Below, in pieces: positions 5,456-28,830 of a stretch of DNA of 64,000 nt. Every line of letters begins with the position of its first letter. Position 1 is the first letter of the stretch. The stretch lies in NCBI RefSeq assembly GCF_947077765.1, contig NZ_CAMTTF010000003.1:434001-498000 (forward strand), given 5' to 3'. A program made the position numbers and the translations under genes. This stretch comes from Salinibacter grassmerensis. Its GTDB lineage: Bacteria > Bacteroidota > Rhodothermia > Rhodothermales > Salinibacteraceae. The notes under the pieces are model-generated. The model was given only the letters and a program-made list of their open reading frames with translations. It ran no database searches and had not been told where the DNA came from.

Positions 5456-5875
5456 ATGCACCTCAGCTTAGATCAAATCAACGATGCCATCCAGTTTCGG
5501 GGCACGAACGGCTCGTACGACGTGGCGATCGCCTCGACGGACGAGCAGGAGGGCCTGAGCCCGATGGAAATGGCGGCACTGAGTGTCGTCGGCTGCAGCA
5601 GCATCGACCTCCTGACCATTCTGGAGAAGCAGAAGCAGGACATTGAAGACTTCAACGCCGATATCGACGGGGAGCGGGCCGACGACTCTCCACGCGTGTT
5701 CACCGACCTACACATGCACTACGAGTTCAGCGGCGACGTGGACCCGGAGAAGGTCCGCCGGGCCATCAACCTGAGCCTCGACAAGTACTGCTCGGTGTCG
5801 AACATGGTCGACCAGACCGCCACCATTACGTTCGCCTTCACCGTCAACGGCGAGCGGTACGAGCAGGGCGAATAG
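5456..5875 (+). CDS. OsmC/Ohr family peroxiredoxin-like protein
   Basis: The 139-residue protein begins MHLSLDQINDAIQFRGTNGS; the frame is open to 5363 but homology and length favour 5456. It has the OsmC layout: beta strands, then SPMEMAALSVVGCSSIDLL with one catalytic-type cysteine at the start of the central helix. The second resolving cysteine expected in OsmC is replaced by a C-terminal CSVSNM segment. Typical members reduce organic hydroperoxides in the cytoplasm; this subgroup (YhfA-like) is less well understood. A hairpin lies just downstream. Confidence 0.87.
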   Translation: MHLSLDQINDAIQFRGTNGSYDVAIASTDEQEGLSPMEMAALSVVGCSSIDLLTILEKQKQDIEDFNADIDGERADDSPRVFTDLHMHYEFSGDVDPEKVRRAINLSLDKYCSVSNMVDQTATITFAFTVNGERYEQGE

Positions 5876-5905
5876 TCGCTCTTCAAACAATGATTTCTCT
5901 TCGAC

Positions 5906-5931
5906 GAGGGGCACGCAGATCGGAGCCCCTC
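5906..5931. terminator. GC-rich hairpin between convergent genes
   Basis: A perfect 7-bp inverted repeat, GAGGGGC (5906-5912) and GCCCCTC (5925-5931), sits in the 69-base gap between the convergent OsmC and carboxyltransferase genes. No long T-run follows on either side, so terminator activity for both strands is inferred from position and stem strength only. Confidence 0.45.
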
Positions 5932-5944
5932 CCCTCCTTTCGGC

Positions 5945-7627
5945 CTACGTCTGAATCACGCCGGGGTTGAAGCGCTCCAGCGTGGGGTTGTGGTCCACCA
6001 TGTCCAGGCCGCGGGCAAGCCACTCACGTGTATCGTGCGGGTCGATGAGGGCATCCACCCACAGACGGGCCGCCGCGTAGTACGGCGTCGTCTGCTCCTC
6101 GTAGCGATTCTGGATTTTGGACAGCAGTTCCTGCTCGTCCTCCGTGGATAGCTCCTTTCCCTGCTTCTCCAGCTGTCGCACCTTGATTTGCTTGAGCACC
6201 TTCGACGCCTGCGTGCCCCCCATCACCGCGATCTTGGCCGTCGGCCACGCCAGGACGAGACGCGGGTCGTAGGCCCGCCCGCACATCGCGTAGTTGCCGG
6301 CGCCGTACGAGTTGCCCACCACGACGGTGAGCTTAGGCACAGTCGAATTTGACACCGCGTTGACCATCTTCGCCCCATCCTTAATGATGCCCCCCTGCTC
6401 GGCCCGTTTCCCCACCATGAAGCCCGTGACATCCTGGAAAAAGACGATCGGGATTTCCTTCTGGTTGCAGTTCATGATGAAGCGGGCCGCCTTGTCGGCA
6501 GCGTCGGCGTAAATGACGCCCCCCACCTGAATCTCGCCCTTCGAGTCGAGGTCCGTCCGGTTGCGCACCACGGCTCGCTGATTCGCCACGACCCCCACGT
6601 TCCATCCGTCGATGCGGGCGTAGCCGGTGAGGAGGGTGCGCCCGTAGCCCTCCTTGTACTCGGTCCAGGACTCCGCGTCGACAATCCGGGCCAGAATCTC
6701 GCGCATGTCGTACTGAGCGTTCCCCTCCGCTGGAAAAAGGCCGTACAGCTCGTCCGCCGGGTAGGCGGGCTCGACCGGCTCCTTTCGAGCGTATCCAAAG
6801 CGCTCTACCGGGCCGGAATGATCCACGATCGACCGGATCTTGTCGAGCGCCGCCTCGTCGTCCTCGACCTTGTGGTCGACCACGCCGGAGATTTCGGAAT
6901 GGGTGGTGGCGCCCCCGAGCTCGTCCTTCTCCACGTCCTCCCCAATGGCCGCCTTCACGAGGTACGGCCCCGCCAAAAATACGGAGCCGGTGTCCTCCAC
7001 AATGATGGCCTCGTCGCTCATGATGGGCAGGTAGGCCCCACCGGCCACACAGCTCCCCATGATGGCCGAAATTTGCGGGATGCCTTTGCTCGACAGCTTC
7101 GCGTTGTTGCGAAAAATGCGCCCAAAGTCGTCCTCGTCGGGGAAGATTTCGTCCTGCATCGGCAGGTAGACGCCCGCCGAGTCGACGAGGTAGATGATGG
7201 GCACATGGTTCTCCAACGCGATGTTCTGTGCGCGAAGGTTTTTCTTGGCCGTGATCGGAAACCAGGCCCCCGCCTTCACGGTGGCGTCGTTCGCCACGAT
7301 CATGCATTCCTGGCCGCTGACGGGCCCCAGCCCCATGACCGTCCCCCCTGCCGGGCATCCCCCCTCGTCCTCGTACATCTCGTATCCGGCAAACAGCCCC
7401 AGTTCGCCAAACGCCGCCGGGTCGTCGACCAGGTACTCAATCCGTTCTCGGGCCGTGAGCTTTCCGCGTTCGTGCTCGCGATCGAGCTTTTCCTTACCGC
7501 CCCCCTTTCGCACCTCCGCGGCGCGCTCCTTCATCGTTTCGACGAGGGCCTCGTAATGGGCCGCTTGCTCCTGGAAGGAAGCGCTTTCAACTGGAGATTC
7601 GGTGCCTAGCGTACCAGAGTCGGACAT
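5945..7627 (-). CDS. Acyl-CoA carboxylase, carboxyltransferase (beta) subunit, MCC-like
   Basis: The 560-residue protein has both crotonase-fold halves of a biotin-dependent acyl-CoA carboxyltransferase. Motifs include GSCVAGGAYLPIMSDE and DTGSVFLAGPYLVKAA in the N half, and VGNSYGAGNYAMCGRAYDPR followed by AVMGGTQASKVL in the C half. These match methylcrotonyl-CoA carboxylase beta more closely than propionyl-CoA carboxylase. It transfers carboxylate from biotin to the acyl-CoA in the cytoplasm, pointing to leucine or branched acyl breakdown. The biotin-carboxylase subunit is not in this window, which is unusual for the family. The substrate call is inferred. Confidence 0.9.
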   Translation of the reverse strand: MSDSGTLGTESPVESASFQEQAAHYEALVETMKERAAEVRKGGGKEKLDREHERGKLTARERIEYLVDDPAAFGELGLFAGYEMYEDEGGCPAGGTVMGLGPVSGQECMIVANDATVKAGAWFPITAKKNLRAQNIALENHVPIIYLVDSAGVYLPMQDEIFPDEDDFGRIFRNNAKLSSKGIPQISAIMGSCVAGGAYLPIMSDEAIIVEDTGSVFLAGPYLVKAAIGEDVEKDELGGATTHSEISGVVDHKVEDDEAALDKIRSIVDHSGPVERFGYARKEPVEPAYPADELYGLFPAEGNAQYDMREILARIVDAESWTEYKEGYGRTLLTGYARIDGWNVGVVANQRAVVRNRTDLDSKGEIQVGGVIYADAADKAARFIMNCNQKEIPIVFFQDVTGFMVGKRAEQGGIIKDGAKMVNAVSNSTVPKLTVVVGNSYGAGNYAMCGRAYDPRLVLAWPTAKIAVMGGTQASKVLKQIKVRQLEKQGKELSTEDEQELLSKIQNRYEEQTTPYYAAARLWVDALIDPHDTREWLARGLDMVDHNPTLERFNPGVIQT

Positions 7628-22870: not shown

Positions 22871-24052
22871 CTACTGGAAGTTGAACAGAAGTGAGAAGCG
22901 GAGGGTGTTGGCCAGAGGACTTTCGTCCTCCGCGGTGTAGAGGTAGGAAATATCCACGCCAACGATGTTGTACCGGAGCCCGGCCCCGAACGTAAGGAAC
23001 TGGCGGTCGCCGTTGTCCGGATGCTCGTAGTAGTACCCGGAGCGGAGCGCAAACAAATCGCTGTACCAGTACTCCACACCCGTTCCGACTGTAAACTGCT
23101 GCACCAGGGACAGGCTAGTGGCCTCCCCGTCCGGACCGACCTGCCCGCGGGCCGAGCCCCACGAATCGAAGAGAGCCTCGAACCCAGTATTCCCCACACG
23201 AACTTGTTCAGTCACAGTAGAATCGCCCTGCTGCTTCTGGATTTCTCTTTGCTCCGTACTGACTAATGACTTGTTGAAGTCCGTGGTAACGGTCAGCGAG
23301 TTATATTCGTCGAAGTCGATGGTCAGGGCCGGACCAAATCGCAGGTTGGCGGGAATGGGGTCTTTGTCCGGGCTGTTTTCGTTGAAGTCCAGCGTTCCGC
23401 CCAGGTTTGCGATGTTAAGGCCCGCCGAGAACGTGGCGTCTGCCCCACCCAACGTGAAGGGGGCGGACCGGTAGAGGGCTGAGATATCAGTGGCGAGCGT
23501 GGCCGCGTTCCCCTCTCCGGTGCCTTCCCGCAAGCCGGAGGTGAGCTTCGAGTGGATGTATCGGAGGGACGTCCCCACCCCCAACCGCTCGGAGACCTTC
23601 ACGCCGTAGGATGTGGAAACGGCAAGCTGGTACGAGTTTGTCACACCGAGCCGGTTCCCAGACGGATCACGGATCTCGGTCTCACCAAGGTTGAGGTATT
23701 GGACGTTGCCCCCAAACGTCCCGACGCCGTCGACGTGGTACGACCCGACGAGGTACTCGTAAAACAGGTTGGCGTTAAATTCCGGTAGCCAGTTCGCGTG
23801 CGTAACCCCAACCTGCGTGTCCTTCTGGAACGCGAGGCCGGACGGATTCCAGAAGATCGTGTTGGCGTTGTCGGCGGTGGCCACCCCGGCGTTGCCCATG
23901 CCGGCCGCCCGGCTGTCGGGCTCGATGCGGAGGAAGAGGGCCGAGGACTGGGCGACCTGCCCGTGGGCAGGCACTACCAGCCCCCCCACGAGTAGCAGCC
24001 CAGAGGCAACAACGAACCAGCGGGACAGGCGCGGAAGAACCTGATCAGTCAT
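22871..24052 (-). CDS. porV: PorV/PorQ-family outer-membrane beta-barrel protein (type IX secretion)
   Basis: The 393-residue protein has an N-terminal signal peptide ending near VVPAHGQ. It continues with LFLRIEPDSRAAGMGNAGVAT and NTIFWNPSGLAF, the conserved start of PorV-type (FadL-superfamily) barrels, and ends with an aromatic F-Q typical of outer-membrane barrels. PorV shuttles type IX secretion substrates from the translocon to the attachment complex. No other T9SS component is in the window, and the paralogue PorQ or a UPF0164 barrel remains possible. It is separated by intergenic gaps on both sides and appears monocistronic. Confidence 0.8.
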   Translation of the reverse strand: MTDQVLPRLSRWFVVASGLLLVGGLVVPAHGQVAQSSALFLRIEPDSRAAGMGNAGVATADNANTIFWNPSGLAFQKDTQVGVTHANWLPEFNANLFYEYLVGSYHVDGVGTFGGNVQYLNLGETEIRDPSGNRLGVTNSYQLAVSTSYGVKVSERLGVGTSLRYIHSKLTSGLREGTGEGNAATLATDISALYRSAPFTLGGADATFSAGLNIANLGGTLDFNENSPDKDPIPANLRFGPALTIDFDEYNSLTVTTDFNKSLVSTEQREIQKQQGDSTVTEQVRVGNTGFEALFDSWGSARGQVGPDGEATSLSLVQQFTVGTGVEYWYSDLFALRSGYYYEHPDNGDRQFLTFGAGLRYNIVGVDISYLYTAEDESPLANTLRFSLLFNFQ

Positions 24053-24443
24053 AGCAGAAAAGATTGGTCGCGTACAGAGTGAACGTCAACGCCGGACACG
24101 ACAAGGAAGTGCTCGTCTCCGGGCACCGATGCGCGAGCAGAGCAGAACCGCGACTCCGGTCCGGCGCACCGTGCCATTCCGGAATTCACTAGCGGAGATG
24201 CCCTGGTCGGCTCGGGATGCCCCTCATCCAATTCAATTCGCGCGGCGTCGTCTGTAGCGTTTGTGGATCAACAGGCCGTAAGGGATCTGCGGGGAAAACC
24301 AACGGGAATGTTTGACGCGCTAGAACCCATTTCGCTGTCCAGTACGAATGTAACAGCCATTCCGGACATATTCCAAAGACAAAAGATGTTGCGGATCTCC
24401 ACTTAGGCGGACGGCGCCTGCGGGTTTCGTTGTTCAACCCTCG
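24053..24443. other. 391-base intergenic stretch
   Basis: I see no supported gene here. An 82-codon frame on the minus strand (24189-24437) has no recognisable protein features. The stretch should hold the promoter of the PorV gene, but I could not pick a convincing -33/-7 pair. Confidence 0.5.
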
Positions 24444-24701
24444 TCACGCCTCTTCTTGATCTTCGAGCGCGTCCCGAAGGCGGGTCAGCCGCTGAAGAGA
24501 TTCCGCCATCCGCTGGCTGGCTTCCTGGATGTCCTGGGCCGACGAGGCAAACTGCTCGTCGAGCTCTTCCTCCTGACTCAGTTCAAGTAAAAACTGCGCG
24601 TTCCCGGAGATAATGGAGAGGGGATTGTTGAGATCGTGGTAGACAGTGGACAGGGTCTCGTGGAGCTCGTCCGTCGTTTCAGGCTCTTCGAAGTCACTCA
24701 T
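24444..24701 (-). CDS. Stand-alone histidine-kinase DHp (HisKA-like) domain protein
   Basis: The 85-residue acidic protein is essentially one helical hairpin. It contains the H-box YHDLNNPLSIISGNAQFLLE (residues about 21-40), with the phospho-acceptor-type histidine at position 22 followed by D-L-N-N-P-L, and a second helix rich in Gln, Glu and Arg. No sensor, HAMP or ATPase domain is present before or after it. It could be a phosphotransfer protein, an anti-kinase adaptor, or a kinase fragment. No adjacent frame encodes the missing ATPase domain, so truncation here would be complete. Confidence 0.7.
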   Translation of the reverse strand: MSDFEEPETTDELHETLSTVYHDLNNPLSIISGNAQFLLELSQEEELDEQFASSAQDIQEASQRMAESLQRLTRLRDALEDQEEA

Positions 24702-24770
24702 TATACCGGGTCGCTACTGGCGGAATGGAAAGGGACGGTGAGGCAGGAGGGACCGCACTGTTGCAAAGCT

Positions 24771-25628
24771 TTACAAAGCATGGAGGGGACGTTTATTGAC
24801 GACCTGAACACCACGGTCGGTGCGTTTCACATCGGCAACCGCGACGTCCGGGTCATGTTCGAAGAACAATTTCCATTCCGAATCCGCCGCCTGCCCCAAA
24901 AACTTGCGTTTCTCCTCAATTGTCCGGAGTGGGCGGACGTCGTAGGCCATCGTCCAAGCCGGGGATAGATGGTGCGTGGTCGGGAGAAGGTCCGCCACGT
25001 AAACGAGGGTCGTCTCGTCGTCCCGTACCATTACAATTTGTTGCGCCTCGGTGTGGCCGTGTACGAGGGACACGTCGACGTGTGGCAGAAGTGTTGTCTC
25101 TCCCTCCACACGGTTGAGCCGCCCCGTTTCTTCGATGGGGGCGAATGTGTCGGGGCGGAAGGACTGGGCCTCTTTCGGGTTCGGATCGGTGGCCCAGTCC
25201 CAGTGTCGTTGCTGGACGTGGTAGGTCGCGTTGGGGAAGGCAACTGCAGGATCCCCGTCGACCCGGCGTGTGCTCCCGCCCGCATGATCGAAGTGAAGGT
25301 GCGTGAGGATGACATCCGTCACGTCCGCCGGCGCTACCCCCTGTGCCGCAAGCGAACTCTTGAGGGTGGATCCGCTGTGATCCACCGCGAAGATGTCCTG
25401 GAACTTCGTGCCTTCGAACGTGTCGCCGACCCCAGTGTCGATCAACACGACGCGATCGTTTCCTGTCAGCAGGAGGCACCGCATGCTCAGTGGAATGCGG
25501 TTCTGTTCGTCCGGCTCAATGCGTTCCGACCAGAGGGGCTTCGGCACGATCCCGAACATGGCACCGCCGTCCAACCCAAACCGACCGGTTTCAATGCTGT
25601 GGAGCGTGTAGGGGCCAATTTCGGGCAT
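24771..25628 (-). CDS. MBL-fold metallo-hydrolase (YtnP/lactonase-like)
   Basis: The 285-residue protein has the zinc motif LTHLHFDHAGGST near the middle, an upstream LIDTGVGD aspartate, and a later HGHTEAQQ and YVADLLP. This is the pattern of the lactonase-like (AiiA/YtnP) branch of the metallo-beta-lactamase fold. Substrates in this branch range from acyl-homoserine lactones to simple esters, so none is assigned. Homology begins at MPEIGPYTLHS (25628), although the frame is open to 25691. It lies 75 bases after the Lon-domain gene. Confidence 0.86.
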   Translation of the reverse strand: MPEIGPYTLHSIETGRFGLDGGAMFGIVPKPLWSERIEPDEQNRIPLSMRCLLLTGNDRVVLIDTGVGDTFEGTKFQDIFAVDHSGSTLKSSLAAQGVAPADVTDVILTHLHFDHAGGSTRRVDGDPAVAFPNATYHVQQRHWDWATDPNPKEAQSFRPDTFAPIEETGRLNRVEGETTLLPHVDVSLVHGHTEAQQIVMVRDDETTLVYVADLLPTTHHLSPAWTMAYDVRPLRTIEEKRKFLGQAADSEWKLFFEHDPDVAVADVKRTDRGVQVVNKRPLHAL

Positions 25629-25703
25629 CGGGGGATCGGCGTGTTTGTGACGAGAGATGTGGGCGCGTAATCTCTCGAACACCGACCTCAATGTCCACGG
25701 CTG

Positions 25704-26345
25704 TCATACCTCTTCGGGCGGAAAGTCTTTGAAGTGCCCGTTAGAACGAATCCGCCGCCGGACTCCCTCCTGCTCTTCAATACGAGGGATAACCGACTCG
25801 AAGTGGTTGATGAGGTAGCGGATTCGTTCGTTCTCGGTTTTCCCTTCGAGCACTTCTTGCTTTTGGTCCCCGTCCAGGGCGCCGTTTTGGGCCAGGACGA
25901 ACGACAGGCGGTCCACATCCTCGTACAGATCGGGGCGGACCGTGCGGCCAGCCAGTTCCAACAGCTTCATGTGTTGTGTAATGGCTCGCTCTTTCAGATC
26001 GAGGTCGATGGTCGTCTCCTCATCCTCAATCAGCGCAATGTCGGCGGTGTAGTAGCTCGCCTGGTCGTCGCGAACGGTGTCAATTCGGAATCGCTCCTCC
26101 CCGCGCACCACGATGTCCGAACGCCCGTCGTCGTACTGCTTCACGACCTCTTCGATGCGGGCCGTCGTGCCCACGTCCGCCCGCGACTCCCCATCGGTTC
26201 GGACGATGCCGAAGGGCACCTCGTGCTCTAGGCAGTACGCGGTGAGGGCCCTGTATCGGTCCTCGAAGATATGGAGGGACAACTGCTCACCCGGATACAG
26301 GACAAGGCTCAGCGGAAATAGAGGAAGAGAATCAATCGAATCCAT
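25704..26345 (-). CDS. LON substrate-binding-domain protein
   Basis: The 213-residue protein consists of an N-terminal LON domain, starting LPLFPLSLVLYPGEQLSLHIFE and including RYRALTAYCLE and IVVRGEERFRI, followed by a helical part. It lacks the AAA+ and protease domains of Lon. Such YcaG/SSO-like proteins occur widely and are thought to bind unfolded peptides; their role is unknown. A TATCTTTG element 23-30 bases upstream may be its promoter. The next gene on the strand follows after 75 bases. Confidence 0.85.
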   Translation of the reverse strand: MDSIDSLPLFPLSLVLYPGEQLSLHIFEDRYRALTAYCLEHEVPFGIVRTDGESRADVGTTARIEEVVKQYDDGRSDIVVRGEERFRIDTVRDDQASYYTADIALIEDEETTIDLDLKERAITQHMKLLELAGRTVRPDLYEDVDRLSFVLAQNGALDGDQKQEVLEGKTENERIRYLINHFESVIPRIEEQEGVRRRIRSNGHFKDFPPEEV

Positions 26346-26597: not shown

Positions 26598-27383
26598 TCA
26601 GGCCTCCGGGCGCTCTCCGTCGGGCGGGCCCGTTTCGGGAGCCATCTCGTCGGCTGGGGCCGGCGGGTGCAGCGAGCCGTGCTCAAGCCGAAGGATGCGG
26701 CCGGCCACCTCAGCGAGGGACGGGTCGTGCGAGGCCAGCACGAAGGTATGAGCCATCTCGCGGCTCAGCCGCTCAATCTCGCGGTGCAGGGGCTCGGCCG
26801 TGCGGGCGTCCAGATTGCCGGTGGGCTCGTCCATGAGCACCAGTGCCGGCTCGTTCATGAGGGCCCGGGCGATGGCTACTCGTTGCTTCTCTCCACCCGA
26901 GAGGGTACGGGGCCGATGGTCGGCACGGTCGTCCAGGCCCAGCAGGGCAAGCAGGTCGTGGGCCCGTGGCGTAACGTCCGCCAAAGAGCGGTGCTGGATG
27001 AGGGCCGGCATGGCCACGTTTTCGAGGGCCGTGAACTCCGGGAGCAGGTGATGAAACTGAAAGACAAACCCGATCGACCGATTGCGGAAGGCCGCAAGCT
27101 CCTCGTCGCTTTTCGCGAAGAGATCCGTTCCGGCAAACCGGACCGTTCCATCGGTCGGCCGGTCCAGGGCCCCCAGCAGGTGAAGGAGCGTGGACTTCCC
27201 GGTCCCACTCTCCCCCACGACGGCAAGAATCTCCCCTTCCTGTACGGCCAGGTCAAGGTCCTGAAGAACGGTAAGCGGGTCATCGCCCCCCGTGTCGTAT
27301 TGCTTGAGGAGCGCATCGACCTGAAGCAGCGGCGTGTCCACGGCGGAAAGAGAAGTAAACGACGACAATGGAGTGGTGAGCAC
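26598..27383 (-). CDS. ABC transporter ATP-binding protein, LolD-like
   Basis: The 261-residue ATPase has Walker [10 protein letters not shown], signature [20 protein letters not shown] and Walker [13 protein letters not shown]. The [19 protein letters not shown] segment is typical of the LolD/MacB group. Members drive lipoprotein release from the inner membrane or power FtsX/MacB-type permeases. No permease gene is adjacent. The C-terminal 25 residues are a Pro/Glu-rich tail. It is 67 bases downstream of the sigma-54 regulator gene and may share its transcript. Confidence 0.88.
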
Positions 27384-27450: not shown

Positions 27451-28830
27451 CTAGTCCCCCCGTTCGAGCCCGTACTTGTTGAGTTTGTTGTAGAGGTGGG
27501 ATCGCTGGATGCCGATCGTTTCGGCCGTCTGACTTACGTTCCAGTCGTGCTCGTGGAGCTTGTGTTGGATGAAGTGTTTCTCAAACTGATCGCGGGCGTC
27601 ACTGAAGTCGTCGTAGCCCTTGATGAGCTCCTGGGCCGGGCCCTCCCCATTCCCCCCCGGCTGCAAAAACTGATCAATGTCGTCCCCTTCGATGACATCG
27701 CCCTTAACGAGAATGAGGAGGCGCTCGATGACGTTGTGCAGCTCTCGGACATTTCCCCGCCAGTCGTACCGCTGCAGCCGCCGGATCGCTTCCTCCGCAA
27801 AGTCTTTCGGCGGAAGCCCGTTGCGCTGGGCCACCCGCTCGGCGATGTGCCGGGTCAGCGGCGGGATGTCTTCTCGGCGGTCTCGGAGGGGCGGGACGTC
27901 GATGAGGATGACGCCGATGCGGTGATAAAGGTCCTCCCGAAACTGTCCCTCTTCAATCTCCTCCATCAGGTCCTTATTGGTGGCCGCCACCACTCGAACA
28001 TCAACCGGAATGGTGTGCTCCCCCCCGACCCGCTCAATTTCATTTTCCTCCAGCACGCGAAGTACCTTCGCCTGCGCCGAAAGGCTCATGTCCCCAATCT
28101 CGTCCAGGAACAGCGTGCCCTCGTGGGCTTGCTCGAACTTGCCGATGCGCTGCTCCGTGGCCCCGGTAAAAGCCCCCTTCTCGTGCCCGAACAACTCGCT
28201 CTCAATCAACTCACTCGGAATCGCGGCGCAGTTCACCTCCACCATCGGCTCGTCGGCCCGGCCCGATTTGTAGTGCAGCCATTTGGCCACGAGTTCTTTG
28301 CCGGTGCCGTTCTCACCGGAGATGAGTACCCGCGCCGCCGTGGGGGCTACCCGCTCAATCGTATCCTTAATCGCTTGAATCTCGTCGCTCTCCCCAATGA
28401 TCGGGGGCAGGTCTCCGGTGCTCTGCTCGGTGATCGTCTGCCGCATCCGGCGGTTCTCGACCTCCAGTTGCCCGTGGTCCAGGGCGTTGCGGACGGTTAC
28501 CAGCAATCGGTTGAGGTCCGGCGGCTTCTCGATGAAATCGAAAGCCCCCAGCTTGGTCGACTCCACCGCCGTCTCGATGGTGCCGTGGCCACTGATCATG
28601 AGGACCGGGACCTCGTATCCCTCGTCGGCGATCGTTTCGAGCACCTCCATGCCGTCCCTCTTCGGCATCTTCACGTCGAGGATCACCAGGTCGTAGGCAT
28701 TCTCGCGGAGGGCCACCAGCGCCTCCTCCCCGTCGACCGCCTCCTCCACCCCAAAGTCCTCATACTCCAGGATTTCGCGAAGCGTCCGCCGAATGCTCGC
28801 CTCGTCGTCAACGACTAAAATTGTAGGCAT
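27451..28830 (-). CDS. Sigma-54-dependent response regulator (NtrC family)
   Basis: The 459-residue protein has three domains. A receiver domain has phospho-acceptor Asp52 in VILDVKMP. An AAA+ domain has Walker A GENGTGKE at 172-179 and the sigma-54 contact loop GAFTGA at 219-224. A C-terminal Fis-type helix-turn-helix reads NVSQTAETIGIQRSHLYNKL. It activates sigma-54 promoters when phosphorylated by a histidine kinase, which is not encoded nearby. The receiver's conserved Lys is in IEKPPDL. Target genes cannot be named from this window. Confidence 0.94.
   Translation of the reverse strand: MPTILVVDDEASIRRTLREILEYEDFGVEEAVDGEEALVALRENAYDLVILDVKMPKRDGMEVLETIADEGYEVPVLMISGHGTIETAVESTKLGAFDFIEKPPDLNRLLVTVRNALDHGQLEVENRRMRQTITEQSTGDLPPIIGESDEIQAIKDTIERVAPTAARVLISGENGTGKELVAKWLHYKSGRADEPMVEVNCAAIPSELIESELFGHEKGAFTGATEQRIGKFEQAHEGTLFLDEIGDMSLSAQAKVLRVLEENEIERVGGEHTIPVDVRVVAATNKDLMEEIEEGQFREDLYHRIGVILIDVPPLRDRREDIPPLTRHIAERVAQRNGLPPKDFAEEAIRRLQRYDWRGNVRELHNVIERLLILVKGDVIEGDDIDQFLQPGGNGEGPAQELIKGYDDFSDARDQFEKHFIQHKLHEHDWNVSQTAETIGIQRSHLYNKLNKYGLERGD

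Follow-up and report, generated by a model that had tools for sequence, protein, structure and literature searches.

A protein of 85 residues that amounts to one HisKA-type DHp hairpin is encoded in the stretch of Salinibacter grassmerensis DNA analysed here (64,000 nt, referred to as the window). The DHp gene is a conserved, real gene in which the kinase part is missing, and its conservation is far above what chance would give. As read from its residues, the product may be a kinase-free DHp dimer whose role is to bind a response regulator and remove its phosphate, a function that we propose tentatively. The protein most likely acts to turn a partner regulator off, or to pass phosphate on, and not to turn the regulator on.

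The DHp protein and the kinase parts of the genome

The features discussed are collected in Table 1. The DHp frame opens with ATG, and its product has a pI of about 4.05 (22 D/E vs 4 K/R). The nearest named relatives are from Salinibacter and Salinivenus, in which proteins are acidic in general, and the acidity is therefore of little informative value. Five Pfam families were matched at E <= 1, with HisKA (PF00512) the sole family above its cut-off (38.7 bits vs 26.9, E 1e-9); SPOB_a (PF14689) scored 22.9 bits, under its cut-off of 28.1, HPt (PF01627) was absent from the five, and no N-terminal sensor domain (PAS, GAF or other) was detected by Pfam. The H-box reads YHDLNNPLSIISGN, as quoted in the initial annotation, and its histidine, His22, lies within YHDLNNPL in helix 1. 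AlphaFold2 (17 rows) predicted a hairpin of two helices, formed by residues 10-44 and 49-84 (mean pLDDT 89.1), and by sequence and model there are no residues beyond the hairpin. These results bear out the initial description of the protein as a solitary DHp hairpin with an intact H-box. Foldseek listed ZraS and other DHp domains amid unrelated hairpins, none at E <= 0.001, and adds little because hairpin matches are unspecific. No promoters or terminators were found by scanning positions 24050-25800, and there was no plasmid match for the DHp gene; one DHp-matching locus (L236) lies on a viral contig. No study was recognised as dealing with the 85-residue protein in a literature search that covered mainly openly accessible papers.

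Table 1. Coordinates, strand and supporting evidence of the features in the window.
Feature	Position	Strand	Evidence
PorV (T9SS) gene	22871..24052	-	NCBIfam T9SS_OM_PorV 312 bits, cut-off 250
Stand-alone HisKA/DHp protein, 85 aa	24444..24701	-	ORF, Pfam HisKA, orthologues in 80/114 genomes of the order
H-box and next helix-1 stretch, residues 21-38 (YHDLNNPLSIISGNAQFL); His22 codon 24636-24638	24588..24641	-	Sequence and residue conservation
MBL-fold hydrolase resembling YtnP lactonase; 69 nt upstream of the DHp start	24771..25691	-	Pfam Lactamase_B 72.3 bits
LON substrate-binding-domain protein	25704..26345	-	Pfam LON_substr_bdg
LolD-like ABC transporter ATPase	26598..27383	-	NCBIfam LolD 268 bits, cut-off 307.75
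NtrC/NtrX-type sigma54 response regulator, candidate partner	27451..28830	-	Pfam Response_reg, Sigma54_activat, HTH_8

The genome (3.78 Mb, 19 contigs; window at C3:434001-498000) was scanned for kinase and receiver domains. HisKA was matched 46 times (E <= 0.01); within the window the DHp gene alone gave a match, and every other match of the genome lies in a frame of at least 241 aa. HATPase_c was matched 60 times (E <= 0.01), never inside C3:434001-498000, in agreement with the earlier statement that no ATPase domain is present in the protein or near it; the CA (HATPase_c) domain by which a sensor histidine kinase is recognised is thus absent from the DHp protein. Receiver matches numbered 43, and the two in the window belong to the NtrC-type regulator and to C3:493059-493391. 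Short HATPase_c frames of 104 aa at C1:917622 (94 aa as L152:7620-7904, C1:917622-917903) and of 167 aa at C1:859581 (L153) would be the candidates for a split kinase, in which a stand-alone ATPase domain encoded elsewhere phosphorylates the DHp in trans. The frame at C1:917622 holds the HATPase_c domain and nothing else, and looks like a lone kinase fragment because elsewhere in the genus the matches sit in frames of 234-926 aa. Autophosphorylation moreover needs the H+1 acid, which is dispensable in the family (see below), and a split kinase is very improbable.

Conservation, gene neighbourhood and receiver fusions

DHp orthologues were recovered by single-sequence search in 80 of the 114 genomes of the order, each with a single copy; the one genome with two places (L140 and L146) carries a single gene cut by contig ends. 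A family profile added three genomes that the single-sequence search had missed (L158, L159 and L163). Of the 296 genomes in a sample of the phylum, the profile matched 23, two of which belong to another family of the class and the other 21 to the order. The 80 loci of the order were retrieved and 81 orthologous frames scanned with Pfam (E <= 0.01), yielding HisKA in 79, Response_reg in five, a sub-threshold SPOB_a match in 14 and HATPase_c in none. The 80 retrieved frames end 49-86 aa past the histidine, the shortest being cut by a contig end. Against the window protein, dN/dS was 0.03-0.18 in seven of eight pairs, and dS was saturated in the eighth (L010).

Were the gene a truncated pseudogene of an ordinary histidine kinase, as its length alone might suggest, its homologues would be expected, in the terms of the initial annotation, all to be longer and to carry an ATPase domain. 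What was found is HATPase_c in none of the 81 frames and the H-box histidine in 79 of 80 sequences; with the order-wide orthologues at one per genome, the shared neighbourhood and the low dN/dS, this reading was rejected as extremely improbable. A gene-prediction artefact was likewise rejected on the shared locus and the protein-level conservation.

A scan of genome contigs matched 34 loci. Nine were bare hairpins (L009-L017), and most of the others encode longer proteins whose chain likewise stops after the DHp; L040-L042 encode kinases of the ordinary, longer kind. Eighteen loci from Fibrobacterota/Chitinivibrionales (L020-L033 and L035-L038) encode long proteins without an ATPase domain that end right after the DHp, with a conserved tail like VVEDYTSSGEQMINLDKSS (L032 runs off the end of its contig); for L025 and L030 Pfam detected nothing but HAMP and HisKA, and at several of these loci a patatin-like gene before and ProB-like genes after were noted by eye. 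Two loci from Zixibacteria (L034:4335-5255 and L039:947-1792) join GAF to the DHp without an ATPase domain and have single-receiver genes nearby; in L039 the H-box histidine is absent and HisKA is under cut-off.

Neighbouring genes were counted on the same strand, within set distance ranges and in informative loci only. Upstream of the DHp gene, the MBL-fold gene (NCBIfam YtnP 195 bits, under the cut-off of 425) was present in 56 of 76 loci and the LON-domain gene in 65 of 75, the LolD-like ATPase gene was linked in 24 of 61, and porV lay downstream within 7 kb in 57 of 67. The MBL-fold gene as such was found in 108 of the 114 genomes. A frame of more than 900 aa, for which the name PorU was inferred from position and size, follows the DHp gene in 36 of 60 loci of the order. 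In this genus porV comes directly after the DHp gene (window positions 22871-24443 and related loci), and the porU-like gene may have been relocated or have disappeared. In nine examined loci (five of family f3, two of f14 and two of f15) no DHp was found, and a frame of 1325-1419 aa lies between the MBL gene and PorV; the absence was judged from these nine loci, the expected place being outside the coverage of L164 and L165. Ten f3/f14 genomes had no match in the family-profile search, in agreement with this absence.

The regulators encoded nearby had been proposed as partners of the DHp protein. The NtrC-type regulator (best NCBIfam match NtrX, 460.6 bits, cut-off 600) does lack a local kinase by the HisKA and HATPase_c matches of the genome, as had been stated, and it is a candidate partner only, the gene lying within 6.1 kb upstream of the DHp gene in 23 of 61 informative loci. 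Its orthologues were present in 102 of the 114 genomes (E <= 1e-145). These include members of f3, f14 and f15, the families in which the DHp was looked for and not found; the distribution of the regulator therefore does not follow that of the DHp, and co-occurrence failed as proof of a partnership. The regulator is still the most plausible target, as a member of the same cluster, although this is the weakest step of the explanation and any receiver of the genome could serve.

In some lineages the DHp stands behind an intact or decayed receiver domain, and receiver-like parts are the only other parts found in the DHp family. Twenty receiver-like N-terminal parts were compared (L073, L121, L124 and L136 were omitted, their long N-terminal parts being judged by eye to be out-of-frame read-through). 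The acidic pair and the Asp are both kept in one of them (L099); L087, L089 and L090 (f1) have kept the Asp and lost the acidic pair, and most others are without the Asp. On a tree built from three neighbour proteins, with 79 rows and two rows unlabelled, the labels "with receiver-like part", "alone" and "absent", set by hand, need nine changes where the minimum possible is two; 15 of 94 rows, including L099 with the best receiver, had fewer than two of the three marker proteins and were omitted. The simplest reading is that the receiver was lost on several occasions while the DHp stayed, a direction that we infer, because change counts do not separate gain from loss. The ancestor would then probably have been a REC-DHp protein whose N-terminal receiver decayed or was lost several times. 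Outside the order, two f16 loci (L187:1438-3053 and L188:134-1761) have a kinase gene whose end overlaps a REC-DHp gene devoid of an ATPase domain. In L187, tested with Pfam, an intact receiver is joined to the DHp directly after a HisKA-HATPase kinase gene, and L188 has the same layout; at each locus the two genes form a pair ready for a phosphorelay, in a different family of the class.

Residue pattern and candidate functions

Residues were counted in 80 DHp sequences, with L146 dropped as the second half of the gene of L140. The H-box positions were located by the G[N/H] pattern, which was present in all 80 loci, and none was dropped. The histidine was found in 79, an acid at H+1 in 68, Asn at H+4 in 77, Pro at H+5 in 76, Gly at H+11 in 80 and Asn at H+12 in 78, counts that favour conserved positions because similarity to the window protein was the basis for collecting the loci. 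The H+1 acid is lost in 12 of the 80 (families f5, f8, f9, f12 and f13), and all 12 have the H+4 Asn. This Asn is missing in three sequences, where it is replaced by Thr (L096), Ser (L118) or Gly (L136). Among 42 other HisKA domains of the genome (45 minus L229, L230 and L235, which have no HxxxxP pattern), 39 carry an acid at H+1, and the H+4 residue is Thr in 31 and Asn in eight.

L096 (genome G073, frame 5872-6225) is the sole orthologue without the H-box histidine, which is Glu there, in a gene cluster that is otherwise intact. Its DHp has 53% identity to that of the window, against 65-66% for L080 and L082, whose MBL identity is similar; on this ground the L096 DHp may be decaying.

In HisKA proteins the H+1 acid is required for kinase and not for phosphatase activity, and Thr or Asn at H+4 is required for phosphatase and not for kinase activity (Willett and Kirby, PMC3510030). 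In the window protein H+4 is Asn26, one of the two residues expected of a HisKA-type response-regulator phosphatase. The family pattern, in which the H+1 acid is dispensable and the H+4 Asn kept, therefore points somewhat more to a phosphatase, and is what one would expect a kinase-free phosphatase to leave behind; the keeping of Asn over the acid is the main point for this reading. Such a role was absent from the initial annotation, which had suggested a dedicated phosphotransfer or dimerisation adaptor, and it fits the residues somewhat better. Phosphotransfer, from that suggestion, is possible, and pure dimerisation is disfavoured because the H-box histidine is kept.

Under the phosphatase reading, the predicted two-helix hairpin would dimerise into a four-helix bundle, as is usual in this fold family, and helix 1 would dock the receiver of a response regulator. 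The H+4 Asn would help water to attack the phospho-aspartate of the regulator, by analogy with HisKA biochemistry, and the net role would be that of a dedicated, ATP-free response-regulator phosphatase. According to the same paper (PMC3510030), DHp alone is a much weaker phosphatase than DHp with its CA domain. CrdS with His changed to Ala retains most phosphatase activity, the half-life of its regulator being 2.6 min, compared with 0.7 min for the wild type and 53.5 min without kinase, and PleC is cited as a phosphatase case that needs the histidine (PMC3510030). A histidine kept in 79 of 80 sequences thus exceeds what a CrdS-like phosphatase needs.

Since the histidine matters little for phosphatase activity in CrdS, its strict retention is the main point for a phosphorelay shuttle, in which the DHp histidine would take phosphate from one receiver and hand it to another, as in Spo0B or ChpT. 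The relatives that join an intact receiver to the DHp, with the f16 REC-DHp gene overlapping the preceding HisKA-HATPase kinase gene, also speak for a relay, as do the sub-threshold SPOB_a matches in 14 of 81 frames. However, the fused receiver has degenerated or disappeared across most of the order (acidic pair and Asp in one of 20), no kinase is linked at the window locus and the histidine is replaced by Glu in one genome (G073, L096); we regard the relay as the main rival reading, though a doubtful one. A non-catalytic adaptor or decoy, in which the DHp would only dimerise with or titrate a kinase or regulator, would suit a small single-domain protein of a family whose other parts are receiver-like, but a pure scaffold needs neither the histidine (79 of 80) nor the H+4 Asn (77 of 80), and this function is unlikely.

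Comparison with known systems

The class defined by "HisKA, no HATPase" is not new, because PMC5847659 already describes archaeal members (nonenzymatic HK-like proteins) and suggests phosphotransfer or phosphatase roles for them. The DHp protein, with a conserved histidine and no HATPase, falls under the definition given there. The archaeal proteins reported in that paper likewise have a conserved histidine and no recognisable HATPase, and REC with HisKA and without HATPase also occurs; they carry PAS, GAF or other sensors, whereas the DHp protein is a bare hairpin, bacterial, order-wide and set in a recognisable locus. It is a minimal, order-wide bacterial variant of these proteins. No description of a bare hairpin as an order-wide bacterial gene was found in the literature covered, mainly openly accessible papers.

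On a broader view that we put forward as speculation of some plausibility, the protein would be a natural minimal regulator phosphatase, descended from a REC-DHp relay that lost its receiver function at first and the receiver itself later, the bare DHp being a dedicated off-switch; the HAMP-DHp proteins of Fibrobacterota, the GAF-DHp proteins of Zixibacteria and the REC-DHp proteins of a related family would form with it one overlooked class of kinase-free two-component hubs. With 85 residues and no ATP site, the protein offers a very small natural system in which docking, phosphotransfer and phosphatase activity of a DHp could be told apart, and genes that resemble incomplete kinases can be conserved regulators.

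Spo0B is a dimer of helical hairpins that form a four-helix bundle (PMC3433190), a likeness touched by the sub-threshold SPOB_a match of the DHp protein. It differs in that the DHp protein falls under the SPOB_a cut-off and has no C-terminal domain. A search for Spo0B by sequence in the PDB was also made, and it was absent among the 47 matches of the family profile. ChpT of Caulobacter is likewise a kinase-dead DHp dimer that handles phosphate; it keeps a C-terminal ATPase-like domain without ATP binding (PMC3433190), whereas the DHp protein has nothing beyond the hairpin. For NtrB and EnvZ, isolated DHp fragments, also without a CA domain, suffice for phosphatase activity (PMC3510030). Those fragments are laboratory constructs, whereas here the gene itself encodes only the DHp, and evolution appears to have retained this phosphatase-capable kind of fragment as a separate gene across an order.
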